Shown here piece by piece: positions 6,428 through 29,656 of a DNA stretch of 35,294 nt. The DNA is from Allokutzneria sp. NRRL B-24872. Lineage in GTDB: Bacteria; Actinomycetota; Actinomycetes; Mycobacteriales; Pseudonocardiaceae. How positions within the stretch are numbered: the first letter of the stretch is position 1; the number at the start of each line of letters is the position of its first letter. The position numbers and the translations under genes are program-made. Under the pieces are notes generated by a model. That model saw nothing but the letters and a program-made list of their open reading frames with translations. It had not been told where the DNA came from and searched no databases. Location: the NCBI RefSeq assembly GCF_002155965.1, contig NZ_MUMH01000125.1:157-35450 (forward strand). The letters are read 5' to 3'.

Positions 6428-8278
6428 ATGACCGGCCGCAGCGACTCGCCCGAGCGCAGCACAGGCCGTGGCATGGGCCTGGCGTTGGTCGTCGCAGTGC
6501 TGTCCTTCGCCGTGGTCGCCGCGGCCGTGTTGGTGTTCAGCGACTCCTCGCGTTGGCTGCGCCTCGCCGTGGTCGCCGCGCTCTGGGCGGCCCTGCTCGC
6601 CGCCTTCGCCGCCGCCCGCTACCGCAACCAGGCCGTGGAGCGCGAAGAGCGCGAGGACGAGCTGCAGCGGGTCTACGAGCTGGAGCTGGAGCGCGAGTGC
6701 GCCGCCCGCCGCGAGTACGAGCTGGAGGTCGAGGCCGAGACCCGGCGCCAGCTGGAGGACGACTCCCGCAGCGAGCTGGACGACCTCCGCAGTGAGCTGC
6801 GCACGCTGCGCGAGAACCTGGAGGCGCTGCTCGGCGGCGAGGTCCTGGTGGAGCGGGTGGCGCTGCGCGCTGAGGCGACGCGGATGCGCGCGCTGGACCA
6901 GGCCCGCCTGGTGGCCATCGCCGACAGCCGCGAGAGCCGCATCATCACGACCACCGAGGAGCACCGCCGCAAGCTCGCGCCCGCCCAGGCGCAGGTGCGG
7001 CAGCAGCCGGTCCGCGCGGACGCCGCGCACACGCAGGTGATGGCCAAGGACAGCGCGCGCCGCGTCGAGTCCGGTCGCCCGCAGCCCGTGCGCAACGAGC
7101 CGTCCCGCCCGCAGCGCCCGCAGCCCGCTCAGCGCCCCGAGCCGACGCGGTCCATGCCGCAACGGCGCGACCACCAGATGCAGCCCGCCGCGGCCATGCC
7201 CGAGGTCGTCGACGCCTGGCCCGTCACCCGCCCGCAGAAGCCCGCCGCCGCGACGACCGTGGTGCCGCCGGTGACCGCCGTGGAGACCACCGAGGTCCAC
7301 GAGCGCACGCCCGCTCAGCCGCCGCAGCGCCCGCGTGACTCGGGCCGCATGGCCGCACCCGCTCAGCCGCCGCAGGGTCCGCGTGACTCCGGGCGCATGG
7401 CCGCGCCCGCTCAGCAGCCGCCGCAGGGTCCACGTGACTCGGGCCGCATGGCCGCGCCAACCCCGACACCAGCGCCCGCTCCAGCTCCTCAGGCAGCAGC
7501 TCCGGCGACACCCACGCCAGCACCGGCTCCGGCGCCCGCTCCGACGCCGTCCGCACGGCCGCAGCGCCCGGAGCCCCAGGTGGTCAGCCGCCCGCCGGTG
7601 CGCGAGCCTCAGGTCGTCAACCGCGCGCCCGAACGCGCCCCGGAGCCGGAGACCAAGCCGGAACCGCGCCCCGAGCCCGAGGTCCGTCGCGCTGAGCCCG
7701 AGGCGCACAAGACCGATGTCGTGCGCCGGTCCGAGCCGCCGCGCCGCCCGGAGCCCGAGGTGCACGCCGAGCCCGAGGCGTCGGCGCTGTCCTCGTTGTC
7801 GGAGTCGTTCTCCCCACCCGAGCCCGAGCCGGAGCCCGCACCCGTGCCGGAGCCGGAGCCGTACGTCGAGCCCGTGCGCTCCTCCGGTCGCAGGCACCGG
7901 GGCGACGCCGAGCCGAGCTGGATGGACAAGCTCGCCGCGACCAAGCGCGAAGCCCTCACACCGCCTTCGGCCCCGGCACCGGCGCCGCCGCCTCCGCCGA
8001 AGGTCGACGTGAACGCGGAGTGGGCCACGCAGGACGACCCGCCTCCGCGCCGCGACACCTCGTCGTCCACTGGACGTCGTCGTCGTCCCGAGGGTGTCGC
8101 CCCGTCCTGGGACTCCACCGGCGCGTGGAACCCGGAACTGTCCGACGCCGAGCCCGCCAAGCCTGCGCCCGCCTCCGGCCACCACGGCTCAGGAACTGGG
8201 CTCTCCGTCAGCGACCTGCTCGCCGCCAACGGCGTGAACGACACCCCGCGCCGACGCCGCCGCCGGGCCGACGACTAG
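6428..8278 (+). CDS. Proline-rich membrane protein with coiled coil (DUF6779-like)
   Basis: 616 residues. Two hydrophobic segments (about 17-38 and 42-60) are followed by a charged coiled coil (about 65-145, rich in Glu/Arg/Leu heptads), a mid-part that resembles DUF6779 proteins, and a very long disordered region of Pro, Ala, Glu and Arg. The latter contains three tandem copies of a ~16-residue PRDSGRMAAP unit and runs of PEPEPE. The position matches M. tuberculosis Rv3604c, a membrane protein rich in Ala/Arg/Pro. Function unknown; the architecture suggests a membrane-anchored scaffold on the cytoplasmic side. The C-terminal motif RRRRRRADD is strongly basic. It abuts the convergent NuoD-like gene with no spacer. 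Confidence 0.8.
   Translation: MTGRSDSPERSTGRGMGLALVVAVLSFAVVAAAVLVFSDSSRWLRLAVVAALWAALLAAFAAARYRNQAVEREEREDELQRVYELELERECAARREYELEVEAETRRQLEDDSRSELDDLRSELRTLRENLEALLGGEVLVERVALRAEATRMRALDQARLVAIADSRESRIITTTEEHRRKLAPAQAQVRQQPVRADAAHTQVMAKDSARRVESGRPQPVRNEPSRPQRPQPAQRPEPTRSMPQRRDHQMQPAAAMPEVVDAWPVTRPQKPAAATTVVPPVTAVETTEVHERTPAQPPQRPRDSGRMAAPAQPPQGPRDSGRMAAPAQQPPQGPRDSGRMAAPTPTPAPAPAPQAAAPATPTPAPAPAPAPTPSARPQRPEPQVVSRPPVREPQVVNRAPERAPEPETKPEPRPEPEVRRAEPEAHKTDVVRRSEPPRRPEPEVHAEPEASALSSLSESFSPPEPEPEPAPVPEPEPYVEPVRSSGRRHRGDAEPSWMDKLAATKREALTPPSAPAPAPPPPPKVDVNAEWATQDDPPPRRDTSSSTGRRRRPEGVAPSWDSTGAWNPELSDAEPAKPAPASGHHGSGTGLSVSDLLAANGVNDTPRRRRRRADD
7310..7457 (+). repeat. Three tandem ~48-51 bp coding repeats
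   Basis: Within the proline-rich region three successive units encode PAQPPQ(R/G)PRDSGRMAA, the third with one extra Gln codon. The units are nearly identical at the DNA level, so copy number may vary between strains. Confidence 0.75.
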
Positions 8279-9415
8279 TCACTTGTCGATGTCGCCCACG
8301 ACCAGGGCAAAGGAACCGAGGACGGCGGGGAGATCGGCCACTTCGGTTCCTGGGAGAAGCGACGCCAGGGCTTGGACGTTGTTGAACGACGGGGTGCGCA
8401 GCTTCAGCCGCCACGGGGTCTTCTCGCCGCGTGAGGCCAGGTAGACGCCGCTGACGCCGAGCGGGGCTTCGAGCCAGGTGTAGACCGAGCCCTCGGGGGC
8501 CTTGACGGCCTTGGGCAGCCGCACGTTCACCGGGCCGCCGGGCAGGCGGTCCAGGCATTCGCGGGCCAAGCGGATGGACTGCGCGATCTCACCGGCCATG
8601 CACTCGACGCGGGCCAGGGCGTCGCCGGTGGTGCCGAGCACGGGCTCGACGGTGAGTTCCCCGTAGGCGCAGCTCGGGTCGTCGCGGCGGAGGTCGATGT
8701 CCACCCCGCTCGCCCGCGCGGCCGGGCCGGTGACGCCGAGTTCGAGGACGTCGTCGCCGGAGAGCACGCCGATTCCCGTGTGGCGAGCGCGAAAACCGGC
8801 TTCGTCCACAGTGGACTGACGGATGGCCGCCAGGTCCACAGTGGACAGTGCGGTGGCGACGCGGGCGGTCCAGCCTGCGGGCACGTCCTCGCGCAGGCCG
8901 CCGATTCTCGTTGCCATGAAGTGGATTCGCCCGCCGGTCGCCTCCTCCATGACCGACTGGACGGCGTGCATGCCCTGCTGCGCGGCGGTGGTGCCCGCCG
9001 TCGACGAGCCGTCCGGAGTGCGGGTGAGCGGGGCCAGGAACGCGAGGTGCGCGAGCATCCGGTTCAGCTCGCACAACAGGGTGCGCAGCCACAAAGCCCT
9101 TGGGGGAACGTCCATCCCGGTCATCCGCTCCACGGCGAGCGCGAGCGTGACCTCGTTGCAGAACGCGGCGAGCCAGTCGTGCCGGTTGGCCAGCGCGAGG
9201 GCCTGGCGGTAGTCGCGCACCTCGAAGAGCTTCTCCGCGCCCCGGTGCAGGTGGCCGACCAGGGGCTCCGCCTCGGTCACGACCGTGCCCTCCAAGCGCA
9301 GCCGCAGCCGGTACGCGCCGTGCGCCGCCGGGTGCAGCGGGCCGAGGTCGATCACGCGGTCGACTCCGAGGTAAGCCGCGCCCGCGCCGACCCCGATCGT
9401 TTCCTGCCTGCTCAC
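8279..9415 (-). CDS. Solitary NuoD-like protein (complex I 49-kDa / [NiFe]-hydrogenase large subunit fold)
   Basis: 378 residues from GTG 9415. Homology to NADH-quinone oxidoreductase subunit D runs full length: GPLHPAAHG near the N-terminus, GHLHRGAEKL, RIGGLREDVP, GVTGPAARASGVDIDLRRD, and the C-terminal APSFNNVQAL-type segment here reading TPSFNNVQALASLLPG followed by VGDIDK. No other complex I subunit gene is in the window, so it is a stand-alone paralogue. Residues equivalent to bovine His59 (His32) and Arg85 (Arg58) are kept, but the quinone-binding Tyr108 position is Trp81. The hydrogenase nickel cysteines are absent. It overlaps the upstream MidA-like methyltransferase gene as GTGA. 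Whether it joins the housekeeping complex I or works alone is unknown. Confidence 0.85.
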   Translation of the reverse strand: MSRQETIGVGAGAAYLGVDRVIDLGPLHPAAHGAYRLRLRLEGTVVTEAEPLVGHLHRGAEKLFEVRDYRQALALANRHDWLAAFCNEVTLALAVERMTGMDVPPRALWLRTLLCELNRMLAHLAFLAPLTRTPDGSSTAGTTAAQQGMHAVQSVMEEATGGRIHFMATRIGGLREDVPAGWTARVATALSTVDLAAIRQSTVDEAGFRARHTGIGVLSGDDVLELGVTGPAARASGVDIDLRRDDPSCAYGELTVEPVLGTTGDALARVECMAGEIAQSIRLARECLDRLPGGPVNVRLPKAVKAPEGSVYTWLEAPLGVSGVYLASRGEKTPWRLKLRTPSFNNVQALASLLPGTEVADLPAVLGSFALVVGDIDK

Positions 9416-10350
9416 GGGCCAATGCTTCCATGCAGCAGCCAGTGGAATCCGCCTAGCCCCATCGGGTCGGTCAGCTCGGCGATCCGGCCAGCTCGGGCGG
9501 CTTCCTCCAGCCAGCGCAGCGGATCTGTCGCGGCGAGCCCGGACGCGGGCGCGGCGGCGGAGACGCCGAGGGCGGCGAGCGCGGTGGCCTGCGAGGTGAT
9601 CACTCCGCCCCCGGCCGCGGCGGCGCACGAGTCCATGGCGACGTGCGCGGTCAGGTCGCGACTGCCGTCCGGGACCGGCAGAACTTGGCGCCCGCCCAGG
9701 TAGCCGGTCAGCGTGCCGAAGCGGGGCCGCCGCGCTCGGAGGTGCCCGTAGTCGACTGCCAGCGCCGCGCCCGCGCGCACCCGCCCGACCGCGTCAGCCC
9801 ACGCGACGTCCCTGGGCAGGCCGACCTCGGCTCGCTCCACGAACGGCCACCACCGGTGCAGCCACTCCAACGCGGGACCCGTGACGGGCGGCCCGACGGA
9901 CTCGGCGCCGTGGTCGTCGACGTGCACGGCGCGGATCTGTCCACTGTGGACTTCAACGATCTGGCACGGGATCGAGTCCAGCCACTCGTGGCCGACGAGC
10001 AAGCCCACGACCTGCTCGGGGAGGTCGCGGCGCACGCGCACCCCGGCGGGAACGGCGGGCGGGTCGAACTCCACGGCGGTCACGCACAGGCGCCGCCGCA
10101 GCGCGGGCGGGGCGAGGTCGTGCACGGCGGCGGACAGCTCGCCGCCGCCCGCGCCGACGTCGACGAAGTCCAGCGAAGCGGGGCGGCCGAGCGCGAAGTC
10201 CACCCGGGAGAGCAGTTCGAGCAGCGCCTGCGCGAGTTCGGGCCCGACCAGCGGCGAGGTCCTGAAGTGCGCGGACGGGCGCTCGCCCCGGGCGAAGAAG
10301 CCGCCGGGGGAGTACAGCGCCGCCTGCCACGCCTGCCGCCAGTCCCGCAC
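9412..10350 (-). CDS. MidA/NDUFAF7-like SAM-dependent methyltransferase (DUF185)
   Basis: 312 residues. The family's order of motifs is visible: an N-terminal YSPGGFFARG...HFRTSPLVGPELAQALLELL segment, the SAM-binding loop FVDVGAGGGELSAAV, and GHEWLDSIPCQIVEV, which corresponds to the NEFFDALP motif of MidA proteins. It then shows WLHRWWPFVERAEVGL and AVDYGH. Mitochondrial NDUFAF7/MidA dimethylates an arginine of NDUFS2, the NuoD homologue. Here the gene lies directly upstream of, and overlaps by four bases, a NuoD-like gene that keeps that arginine. The substrate is therefore predicted to be its neighbour; this is inference from context. The upstream region is shared with a divergent PrsW-like gene. 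Confidence 0.85.
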   Translation of the reverse strand: MRDWRQAWQAALYSPGGFFARGERPSAHFRTSPLVGPELAQALLELLSRVDFALGRPASLDFVDVGAGGGELSAAVHDLAPPALRRRLCVTAVEFDPPAVPAGVRVRRDLPEQVVGLLVGHEWLDSIPCQIVEVHSGQIRAVHVDDHGAESVGPPVTGPALEWLHRWWPFVERAEVGLPRDVAWADAVGRVRAGAALAVDYGHLRARRPRFGTLTGYLGGRQVLPVPDGSRDLTAHVAMDSCAAAAGGGVITSQATALAALGVSAAAPASGLAATDPLRWLEEAARAGRIAELTDPMGLGGFHWLLHGSIGP

Positions 10351-17769: not shown

Positions 17770-18777
17770 TCAGCTCTTCGCCGGGTCGACCCCGAATGCC
17801 TTGGCCAGGTCGTCCAGGACCGCGTGCGCGCCCTGCAGGCTCACCGAGGCGATCCAGGTGCCGTCCTGGACATCGGTGACCTTGCCCTTGAGCTGCTTCC
17901 ACAGCGGGTTGGCCAGGTACTTCTCCTTGGCCTTCGCCGAGTCCCCCTTGGCGTCGGGGAAGGCCGAGACGAAGATCGCGTCGGCGTCGGCGTCCAGGAT
18001 GCGCTCCTCGGCCACGTTCACCGAGATGTCCTTGGCCTTGGAGTCGTCCTGCGAGGCCGGCCGGGCCAGGCCCGCGTCCTTGAGCACGATGCCGACGAAG
18101 CTGTTCGGCGTGTAGAGCCGGGTCGGGCCGTTCACGAAGCGCACCACGGAGATCGTCGGGTTCTTGCCCGCCTTGGCGCGGATCGACTCACCCAGCTTGC
18201 GGGCGCGCTCCTCGTAGCCCTTGATCTTCTTGTCGGCCAAGTCCTCCTTGCCGAGCGCGGTGCCCAGGAGGCGGATGTTGTCCTTCCAGGTCAGCCCGGT
18301 GGTCTGGCTGAACACCGCCGGCTTGCGCGCGGAGAGCTGGCCGTAGAGCTGCTCGTGGCGCACCTTCGCCGAGACGATCAGGTCCGGGTTCAGCGCCAGG
18401 GTCTCCTCGACCTTGGGCTGCTCCAGCGATCCGACGGCCTTGGCGTTGCGGCCGTACACCTCAGCTTCGGCCTTGAGGTAGTCCGGGAACTTGTCGCCGG
18501 TCAGCGGGAACAGCGTGAACGCGACGACCTCGGTCTCCAGCGCGAAGGCCGCGTCCACGTAGCTGCTGTCCAGCGCGGCGATCTTCTTCGGCGCGGCGGC
18601 GATGGTCGTCTCGCCCATCGCGTGCTTGACGGTCCTCGGGAAGCCCGCGCCCGCCTGGCCCGAGGCCGGTGGTGGCGAACTCGGTGCGGCCCCGCCGCAG
18701 CCCGCGACCACAGCGGCCACGGTCAGGGCGGCCACTCCGGCGAACGCCCGCCTGGCCAACAGCGCCCTTGTCCTCAA
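17770..18777 (-). CDS. Siderophore/iron ABC transporter substrate-binding lipoprotein (FecB-like), copy 1
   Basis: 335 residues from a TTG at 18777 placed 5 nt after GGAGG; an alternative TTG lies four codons upstream, within that ribosome-binding region. Lipoprotein signal with lipobox VVAGC (Cys27), then a periplasmic-binding TroA/FecB fold: ALDSSYVDAAFALETEVVAF, LNPDLIVSAKVRHEQLY, VVRFVNGPTRLYTPNSFVGIVL, ILDADADAIFVS and a C-terminal LDDLAKAFGVDPAKS. It probably binds a ferric siderophore outside the membrane. It is a close paralogue of the next reverse gene, with its own iron-box-like site upstream. Ligand unknown. Confidence 0.9.
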   Translation of the reverse strand: MRTRALLARRAFAGVAALTVAAVVAGCGGAAPSSPPPASGQAGAGFPRTVKHAMGETTIAAAPKKIAALDSSYVDAAFALETEVVAFTLFPLTGDKFPDYLKAEAEVYGRNAKAVGSLEQPKVEETLALNPDLIVSAKVRHEQLYGQLSARKPAVFSQTTGLTWKDNIRLLGTALGKEDLADKKIKGYEERARKLGESIRAKAGKNPTISVVRFVNGPTRLYTPNSFVGIVLKDAGLARPASQDDSKAKDISVNVAEERILDADADAIFVSAFPDAKGDSAKAKEKYLANPLWKQLKGKVTDVQDGTWIASVSLQGAHAVLDDLAKAFGVDPAKS

Positions 18778-18936: not shown

Positions 18937-19923
18937 TCAGCTCTTCGCCGGGTCCACGCCGAAGGACTTGGCGAGGTCGTCCAGGATGATGTGCGCGCCC
19001 TGCAGGCTCACCGCGGTCACCCAGGTCAGGTCGTTGACCGCGACCACCTTGGACGCGAGCGGGCGCCACAGCGGATTGGTCTCGAAGCGCTGCTTCGTGC
19101 TGGCCGACTGGCCCTTCTCGTCGGGGTAGGTCGCCACGAAGATCTTGTCGGCGTCGGCGTCGCCGATGCGCTCCTCGCTGATCTCGGCGGCGAAGGACTC
19201 GGCGGCCTGCGGGGCCGGCCGGGCGAGGCCAGCGTCCTTCATCACGATCCCGGAGAAGCTGGCCTGCTGGTAGAGCCGGGTCGGGCCGTCGACGAAGCGC
19301 ACGATGGAGATCGTCGGGTTCTTGCCCTCCTTGGCCCTGATCGCGTCGCCGATGCGGCGGGCCCGGTCCTCGTAGGCCTTGATCTTCTTCTCGGCCAGCT
19401 CCTCCTTGCCGAGGGCCTTGGCCACCAGGCGGATGTTCTGCTTCCAGGTCGGGCCGGTGGTGTCGCTGAACACCGTCGGCACCTTGGCGCTGAGCTGGCC
19501 GTAGATCGCCTCGTGGCGCACCTTGGCCGAGACGATCAGGTCCGGCTTCTGGTTCAGCAGCAGCTCGATCTTGGGCTCGGCCAGCGTGCCGACCGCCTTG
19601 GCGCCCGCGCTCAGCCGCTTGCCCTCCTCGCCCAGGTAGTCGGGCACGCGGTCGCCGATCGAGCGGTAACTGGTGAAGGCCACGACCTCGGTCTCCAGCG
19701 CGATCACCGCGTCCACGAAGCTCGCGTCCAGCGCGGCGACCCGCTTGGGCGCGGCCTGGATCGCGGTCTCGCCCATGGCGTGCTTGACGGTCCTGGGGAA
19801 ACCGGCTGCGGGGGCGGCGGAGCCACCGCCCTGCGGGGTGGCGGGGGAGGGGCCGCAGGCGGCAACCGCGGCGGCCACGGCGATGATCGCCAGACTCCGT
19901 CTCGCCAACAACGCTCTGGACAA
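18937..19923 (-). CDS. Siderophore/iron ABC transporter substrate-binding lipoprotein (FecB-like), copy 2
   Basis: 328 residues from TTG 19923, with GGAGG four nt before the start. Lipobox VAAC gives mature Cys23, followed by a Gly/Ala/Pro linker and GFPRTVKHAMGET shared exactly with copy 1. The two proteins align end to end, including PTISIVRFV / PTISVVRFV and the identical ending FGVDPAKS, so they arose by tandem duplication. Differences cluster in ligand-facing stretches such as FTSYRSIGD versus FTLFPLTGD. It is divergent from the permease genes, with two iron-box-like sites in the shared promoter region. Confidence 0.92.
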   Translation of the reverse strand: MSRALLARRSLAIIAVAAAVAACGPSPATPQGGGSAAPAAGFPRTVKHAMGETAIQAAPKRVAALDASFVDAVIALETEVVAFTSYRSIGDRVPDYLGEEGKRLSAGAKAVGTLAEPKIELLLNQKPDLIVSAKVRHEAIYGQLSAKVPTVFSDTTGPTWKQNIRLVAKALGKEELAEKKIKAYEDRARRIGDAIRAKEGKNPTISIVRFVDGPTRLYQQASFSGIVMKDAGLARPAPQAAESFAAEISEERIGDADADKIFVATYPDEKGQSASTKQRFETNPLWRPLASKVVAVNDLTWVTAVSLQGAHIILDDLAKSFGVDPAKS

Positions 19924-28552: not shown

Positions 28553-28930
28553 TCAGGAGCAGCCGAAGCTCTTGGACTTCAGCGAGTCGGCAACGGCCGA
28601 GCCCTCCGGCAGCACCGCACCCTGGAAGCAGGTGTTCTTGACGGTGCTGAACGGCAGCTTGACGGTGCGGCTCTGGCCCGAGCGCACCGGCATGTAGGTG
28701 TTGTCGAACTTGTAGTTGCTGCCCTGGCGGTAACCGAGCTTCACCCAGACCTCGCTGCCACCGGTCTTGGAGTAGGTGATCTCGATGTTGCTGCCCTTCT
28801 TCTGCGCGCAGACCTTGCCGTTGCTGTGCGTCTGGCAGTTCTCGGAGGCAGCGAGGGCGGTGCCCGGGGCCAGGAGGGCCGCACCGGCGATGACGGCCGC
28901 CAGGCCCAGAACCGTTGCCTGCTTGCGCAT
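28553..28930 (-). CDS. Small secreted protein, copy A of a paralogous pair
   Basis: 125 residues from ATG 28930 with AGGAG five nt before it. A Sec signal peptide MRKQATVLGL...PGTALA-A is followed by a mature part of about 98 residues with four cysteines (ENCQTHSNGKVCAQ, NTC and the last-but-one residue), likely two disulfides. Lys/Ser/Gly-rich and beta-strand-like (YSKTGGSEVWVKLGYRQGS). No family is recognised. Its relative lies 350 bp away, with the same first ten residues. Possibly a surface or antimicrobial-type small protein; no function is claimed. Confidence 0.75.
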   Translation of the reverse strand: MRKQATVLGLAAVIAGAALLAPGTALAASENCQTHSNGKVCAQKKGSNIEITYSKTGGSEVWVKLGYRQGSNYKFDNTYMPVRSGQSRTVKLPFSTVKNTCFQGAVLPEGSAVADSLKSKSFGCS

Positions 28931-29278: not shown

Positions 29279-29656
29279 TCAGGTGCGGATGTGGTCCGTC
29301 TTCAGGCCGTGATCGATGTTCGTCCCCGCGGAGGCGACGATTCCCTGGAGAAAGGTGCCCGACTTCTTCTTGAGGTTCATGGTCTTGGTGACCGTCTGGC
29401 CGACCGCGACGGTGGCGGTCGGACCGGTGACGTAGACGCTGCCGTAGCGGTAGCCGAAGGTCGTGCTCGCCGTGCTGCCGCCCGTCTTCTGGTACCGCAC
29501 GTCGACGGTGGTGGCGTTCACCCTGGCGCACACGGTGCCGTTGGTGTGCTTGATGCAGCCGGTGAAGCCCGCTGCGGCGGATGCGGTTGCCGGGGCCACC
29601 AGAGCGATGGCCGCGATGGCCGTCGTCAGTCCCAGGACCGTCGCCTGCTTGCGCAT
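29279..29656 (-). CDS. Small secreted protein, copy B of a paralogous pair
   Basis: 125 residues from ATG 29656 with AGGGAG upstream. The signal peptide begins MRKQATVLGL as in copy A and ends ATASA-A. The mature part keeps the N-terminal cysteine pair (GCIKHTNGTVCAR) and the TGGS and FGYRYGS motifs, but the two C-terminal cysteines of copy A are missing (FLQGIV instead of CFQGAV, and a different tail), so it can form only one disulfide. No known family is recognised. Confidence 0.75.
   Translation of the reverse strand: MRKQATVLGLTTAIAAIALVAPATASAAAGFTGCIKHTNGTVCARVNATTVDVRYQKTGGSTASTTFGYRYGSVYVTGPTATVAVGQTVTKTMNLKKKSGTFLQGIVASAGTNIDHGLKTDHIRT

Follow-up and report, generated by a model that had tools for sequence, protein, structure and literature searches.

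A MidA-type methyltransferase gene accompanies the NuoD subunit of a reduced, probably membrane-free second complex I in actinobacteria

Analysing a 35,294-nucleotide stretch of the genome of Allokutzneria sp. NRRL B-24872 (the window), we found overlapping genes for a MidA-type methyltransferase and a NuoD-type complex I subunit, NuoD2 (Table 1). The explanation that we favor, at somewhat better than even chances, is that the second complex I of actinobacteria (nuo2) has been cut down in this lineage to a NuoB2-C2-D2-I2 electron-transfer module without a membrane arm, the N2 site of which is methylated by MidA. Within this explanation, support is good for the MidA-NuoD2 link and for the reduced gene set; that the reduced module is membrane-free is likely, judging from its sequences, and the electron donor and acceptor that we name are guesses.

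Table 1. Features of the midA-nuoD2 pair, in window positions
Feature	Position	Strand	Remark
nuoD2, NuoD/49-kDa-type subunit of the second (nuo2) complex I, reduced form	8279..9415	minus	378 aa from GTG
midA, MidA/NDUFAF7-type (PF02636) methyltransferase	9412..10350	minus	312 aa
GTGA overlap of midA stop and nuoD2 start	9412..9415	minus	
Arg58 codon in HRGAEK, equivalent to NDUFS2 Arg85	9242..9244	minus	ungapped alignment with mitochondrial LHRGTEK
Degenerate NuoD2 loop in place of SYPLEIGAITPxFYAFRERE of full NuoD2	8966..9034	minus	coordinates by our own count

The initial annotation had pointed out the GTGA overlap and an arginine at the NDUFAF7-type site; both are present in the sequence, with midA preceding nuoD2 and Arg as residue 58. 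NuoD2 passes PF00346 (Complex1_49kDa; E value of 1.7e-58, 198.3 bits, cut-off of 24) and stays below the NCBIfam equivalog cut-offs for NuoD (313.2 versus 360 for PRK06075, 297.4 versus 459.35 for TIGR01962), the former of which is cleared by the full NuoD2 of locus L291 (383.7). MidA passes PF02636 (Methyltransf_28; E value of 1.2e-10, 41.7 bits, gathering score of 23.3) and is the sole match to this family in a Pfam search of the genome. Its AlphaFold model (pLDDT 92.1) matches PDB entries 4f3n, 4g67, 1zkd, and MidA 5ztz with a TM of 0.77-0.80 of query, and the model of NuoD2 (pLDDT 84.6) has bovine NDUFS2 (7r4f_D) as its top match with a TM of 0.86, its loops 27-34 and 55-62, the latter of which holds Arg58, falling below pLDDT 50. 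The stop codons of nuoD2 and a convergent DUF6779 gene abut with zero bases between them (window 8276-8281). Elsewhere in the window, similar genes of secreted type stand in tandem twice, as pairs (17770-18735 with 18937-19878, and 28553-28930 with 29279-29656).

That the pair lacks other nuo genes, as first described, is true of the window but not of the genome, in which a complete canonical nuo operon, asked after by the same annotation, lies on contig C23 and a nuoB2-C2-I2 cluster, unlinked to midA-nuoD2, lies on contig C454 (L156, 7148-8609; Pfam matches to Oxidored_q6, Complex1_30kDa, and Fer4). The proposal of a stand-alone NuoD-MidA module therefore had to be abandoned: NuoD2 is the D subunit of a Streptomyces-type second complex I, with NuoB2-C2-I2 co-occurring on another contig, and a lone pair is ruled out by the two further gene sets together with the co-occurrence of NuoI2 and NuoD2 described below. 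The canonical NuoD reads GYLHTGIEK at the site in question. It shares its Thr with Mycobacterium smegmatis (8e9g) and Thermus (2fug); the human NDUFS2 sequence there is LHRGTEK. Canonical NuoD thus offers no methylation target there, and NuoD2 would be the target of a MidA that modifies the same position as NDUFAF7. No second NuoH was found in a genome-wide search, the one PF00146 match being within the canonical operon; NuoA2 and NuoJ2-N2 are absent beside nuoB2-C2-I2, a statement on this locus, since NuoH alone served as the genome-wide membrane marker.

The best sequence evidence that NuoD2 would work with NuoB2 is a reciprocal pattern of residues at the N2 site. According to the accessible part of PMC8042128, the Arg that stabilises N2 is provided by NDUFS2 in Yarrowia and by NuoB (Nqo6 Arg83) in Thermus, with Thr in the partner each time. 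In the window genome, Arg75 of canonical NuoB (NuoB1) aligns with Nqo6 Arg83, and NuoB2 has a Thr aligned with that of Paracoccus and mitochondrial NuoB, so that NuoB1/NuoD1 read Arg/Thr and NuoB2/NuoD2 read Thr/Arg. The Thr recurs in 28/28 NuoB2 and the Arg in 3/3 canonical NuoB, NuoB2 being counted only in clusters that were read, as second matches to PF01058 include hydrogenase-type subunits (L072, L074). The NuoD arginine is dimethylated in Paracoccus and unmodified in Escherichia coli, as stated in the accessible part of PMC3750175; a Pfam search found PF02636 absent from our E. coli control genome.

MidA and NuoD2 are present and absent together. Among the 61 genomes of the order sample, with NuoD2 called at E below 1e-80, NuoD2 is found in 25 and MidA in 24, all of which are NuoD2 genomes, and MidA is found in none of the other 36. 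The only NuoD2 genome without MidA is G008, whose NuoD2 gene sits some 470 bases from the end of a contig. Except for G013 (82% complete), where NuoD2 alone matched, all of the 61 genomes yield a canonical-type NuoD, as a match or as a fragment. Among the 90 genomes of the family sample, NuoD2 occurs in 28 and PF02636 in 29, with 25 in common. Three NuoD2 genomes have no Pfam MidA: G267 and G283 are positive by our own profile, and in G337 the contig stops 1.5 kb upstream. Weak partial PF02636 matches, two exceeding the cut-off, occur in four family genomes that have no NuoD2 (G255, G297, G301, and G328), and we take them for other methyltransferases. The Fisher values for the two samples (4e-16 and 6e-15) take no account of relatedness, although the genomes counted are related and the events not independent. 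We rejected a role of MidA in serving canonical complex I, given the Thr at the NuoD1 site and the 36 order-sample genomes that have neither MidA nor NuoD2.

The pairing of the enzyme with its likely substrate, first noted in this strain, holds far outside it, both in the order sample and among the loci named from the best 80 of 577 NuoD2 matches. HRGAEK is present in 80/80 of these loci, and MidA lies within the locus in 74 (partial only in L079 and L112), the remaining six ending less than 2.5 kb upstream of NuoD2. As to whether MidA is always adjacent, presence in the locus is the rule but tight linkage is not: among 68 gene-called pairs from the same loci, 21 lie within 60 bases on one strand, and the others are up to 8.6 kb apart or, in six loci, on opposite strands, as called by our own heuristic, which misses some genes, e.g., NuoI2 in L296. 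The PrsW-like protease that had been suggested as a third member lies beside the pair in 17 of these best 80 of 577 loci, all of the Pseudonocardiaceae type (L076-L092), and in 0/63 others, which indicates local synteny and led us to drop it as a module partner. MidA is fragmentary in Kutzneria sp. 744 (L079, 9303-9744), and in G038 and G047 it runs across two frames, by sequencing error or decay.

In a sample of the phylum, MidA was found in 66/198 genomes. The best NuoD2-type gene fetched from 63 MidA genomes (MidA genomes G149 and G233 left out) has Arg at the site in 63/63 cases (59 by pattern, 4 by eye), as do 41/42 of those from genomes without MidA (26 by pattern, 15 by eye), and the 15 canonical NuoD fetched from this sample all have Thr. 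Thus, MidA accompanies an Arg-type NuoD, and outside this class an Arg-type NuoD needs no MidA.

The second gene set of Streptomyces is described in the accessible parts of PMC3765725 and PMC8388888 as nuoA2, B2, and H2-N2 with nuoD2 elsewhere, and in that of PMC9239103 its function is called unclear and a hybrid nuo/nuo2 machinery is suggested. In a quick tree, NuoD2 of the window groups with NuoD2 of nuo2-bearing genomes in a clade of 35 rows (SH-aLRT of 100). The full nuo2 clusters that we read lack NuoEFG; nuoC2 is present in five of them (L164, L166, L167, L291, and L292), although PMC9239103, in its accessible part, lists Streptomyces nuo2 without NuoC. In the order sample, a second NuoH occurs in 15/61 genomes, all with NuoD2 (E values between about 1e-98 and 1e-104; the G025 match is partial), leaving ten NuoD2 genomes without it. 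Eight of these ten, including that of the window, have nuoB2/C2 plus I2 (I2 not at the G008 contig end), with NuoH2 not found between C2 and I2. The other two are G013, which is incomplete, and G024, which counts against our reading in having NuoD2 and MidA but a single NuoB match and a NuoD2 that keeps the loop discussed below. In the family sample, NuoI2 and NuoD2 are found in the same 28/90 genomes and NuoH2 in only two of the 28 (G278 and G314), where midA-nuoD2 and the whole of nuoA2-N2 share one neighbourhood; the four-part set of NuoB2, C2, D2, and I2 is kept in 26/90. NuoD2 of the window and 16 other reduced NuoD2 form one clade spanning three families (SH-aLRT of 98 in the same kind of quick tree, with long branches flagged), suggesting one reduction.

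The reduced sets have also changed within their proteins. Scored at 242 positions conserved in 15 full NuoD2, the 17 reduced NuoD2 keep the loop at positions 121-140 (segment GSYPLEIGAITPxFYA), which by homology would face the quinone and NuoH, at 0.27 and the segment after the Arg at 0.91. The loop is kept by the canonical NuoD of the window genome and retained in part by reduced G044, the latter counting against our reading. At the position of a Tyr in mitochondrial and Thermus NuoD, which is Phe in the canonical actinobacterial protein, NuoD2 has Leu; of the two features that we take to mark a NuoD quinone site, the loop is degenerate in NuoD2 and the tyrosine is replaced. The NuoB2 loop RHDFIRFG-PRQAD is lost or scrambled in reduced sets, and the N-terminal membrane helix of NuoI2, present in 4/4 full sets, is missing in 20/21 reduced ones, the exception, L158, retaining a helix-like stretch that again counts against our reading. 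The N2 cysteine motifs are found in 28/28 NuoB2 and both 4Fe-4S motifs in 25/25 NuoI2, and the window genome has NuoB2 and NuoI2 with their ligand cysteines. Within-genus dN/dS values, from our own Nei-Gojobori script, are 0.07-0.11 for NuoD2, 0.22-0.25 for MidA, 0.13-0.16 for NuoB2, 0.10-0.16 for NuoC2, and 0.03-0.05 for NuoI2, compared to 0.13-0.23 for canonical NuoD with the G262 rows left out. We rejected decay of the gene set in view of this purifying selection on all five genes (0.03-0.25).

We propose that NuoD2 serves as D subunit in the second complex I of actinobacteria, which has no NuoEFG, and that this lineage would have lost the nuo2 membrane arm. What is left would be a Q-module of four subunits, NuoB2-C2-D2-I2, with its genes at two sites; its components are seen as genes, and they would assemble into a complex. 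MidA would dimethylate Arg58 of NuoD2, next to the N2 cluster in NuoB2, just as Arg85 of NDUFS2 is dimethylated by NDUFAF7, and this modification may let N2 form or keep its potential. The most likely electron source would be ferredoxin, itself reduced by a 2-oxoacid:ferredoxin oxidoreductase; the electrons would enter via the two NuoI2 clusters and pass on to N2, from where a soluble or peripheral partner might accept them, rather than quinone in a pocket built by NuoH. Ferredoxin is put forward because a korA-type gene is found in 9 of the 22 nuo2 or nuoB2-C2-I2 loci read (L159, L163, L166, L167, L294, L296, L297, L299, and L301, from families f1, f5, f7, and f9), which is suggestive only; these calls are by N-terminal resemblance, with a Pfam test in L296 only, and no such gene is in the stretch read for the window genome. 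A wider version of the proposal, to which we give somewhat less than an even chance, is that a NuoB-C-D-I module was freed once from the membrane arm, before several actinobacterial families radiated, and became a soluble ferredoxin-linked enzyme with a non-quinone acceptor and an arginine methyltransferase dedicated solely to its N2 site.

The reduced set could instead use a borrowed membrane arm, with NuoB2-C2-D2-I2 docking on canonical NuoA, H, and J-N and making a ferredoxin-driven pump of them when electrons do not come from NADH. In 5/5 genomes of family f10, a single gene separates the canonical nuo operon from nuoB2-C2-I2 downstream of it. This agrees with such interchangeable arms, as does the hybrid machinery suggested for Streptomyces (PMC9239103, accessible part), but the parts that would face that membrane arm, namely the NuoD2 loop, the NuoB2 loop, and the NuoI2 helix, are the very ones lost while canonical NuoD keeps its loop, and we consider this arrangement unlikely. 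Sharing of parts could also be limited to NuoD2, serving as an alternative D subunit inside canonical complex I, e.g., under stress, and tuned by MidA. The shared fold and family and the presence of both NuoD genes in one genome would allow this, yet by the Arg/Thr switch it is NuoB2 that fits NuoD2, NuoD2 is present or absent together with NuoI2, and 62/90 family genomes do without it, all of which makes such a role most improbable.

The variable length and sequence of the loops and the scores of reduced NuoD2 under the NuoD equivalog cut-off would also suit a relic of nuo2, functionless today or moonlighting since the loss of the membrane arm. This is decidedly improbable given purifying selection that is, within genera, stronger on NuoD2 than on canonical NuoD, the retention of the four-part set in more than a quarter of family genomes and of the reduced clade across three families, and the intact Fe-S cysteines. 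It is very unlikely, too, that MidA has some other substrate and is linked to nuoD2 by inherited gene order: Arg-bearing NuoD2-type genes without MidA in other classes and the varying distance and strand of the two genes point that way, but midA and nuoD2 are present or absent together even when they are not adjacent.

Complex I forms that use ferredoxin and lack NuoEFG include Fpo and cyanobacterial NDH-1, both with a membrane arm. Full nuo2 clusters resemble these in lacking NuoEFG, and NuoD2 matches FpoD and PRK12322 in one stretch, whereas the reduced module seems to have no membrane arm. Mitochondrial NDUFAF7-NDUFS2 and Paracoccus denitrificans, whose NuoD is dimethylated, resemble our pair in the MidA-family fold and PF02636, the Arg in HRG-EK beside the loop to cluster N2, and the Thr in the partner NuoB (accessible parts of PMC3829151 and PMC3750175). 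In our case, unlike NDUFAF7-NDUFS2, the enzyme and its likely substrate are encoded by overlapping genes, the substrate has a canonical NuoD of the Thr type as a paralogue in the same genome, the cognate membrane arm seems to have gone, and methylation is predicted from genes. With Streptomyces nuo2 it has in common the NuoD2 clade and a nuoD2 unlinked from the rest (PMC3765725 and PMC8388888, accessible parts), but only nuoB2, C2, I2, and D2, with no second NuoH, were found in the window genome. The accessible parts of the same two papers do not mention midA beside nuoD2, and our literature search, which had most subscription papers outside its scope, found no MidA-NuoD link in Streptomyces.

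Loss of NDUFAF7 blocks assembly in human cells (PMC3829151), and mutation of the Arg destroys N2 in Yarrowia (PMC8042128); in the accessible parts of these two papers, the role of methylation has so far been inseparable from that of the Arg itself near N2. Here, a single cell would have an N2 site with the Arg in NuoD plus a methyltransferase and a second N2 site with Arg in NuoB, Thr in NuoD, and no such target, providing a simple bacterial system for asking what N2-site methylation is for. The module genes look dispensable, so that a midA deletion could probe the role of methylation with respiration still running. The module also offers a set of partners for the unexplained nuo2 of Streptomyces and, if it is truly membrane-free, would be an unusual case of the Q-module of a pump surviving as something else, with bearing on module exchange between complex I and hydrogenases.

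An HtpX-like gene directly follows nuoI2 in 15/15 reduced loci read (L156-L162, L293-L299, and L301), assigned as an M48 peptidase by Pfam in L156 (6176-7054) and by resemblance in the others. In family f10 (L157, L158, L160, L161, and L162), the one gene between the canonical nuo operon and the downstream nuoB2-C2-I2 encodes 332-336 aa.
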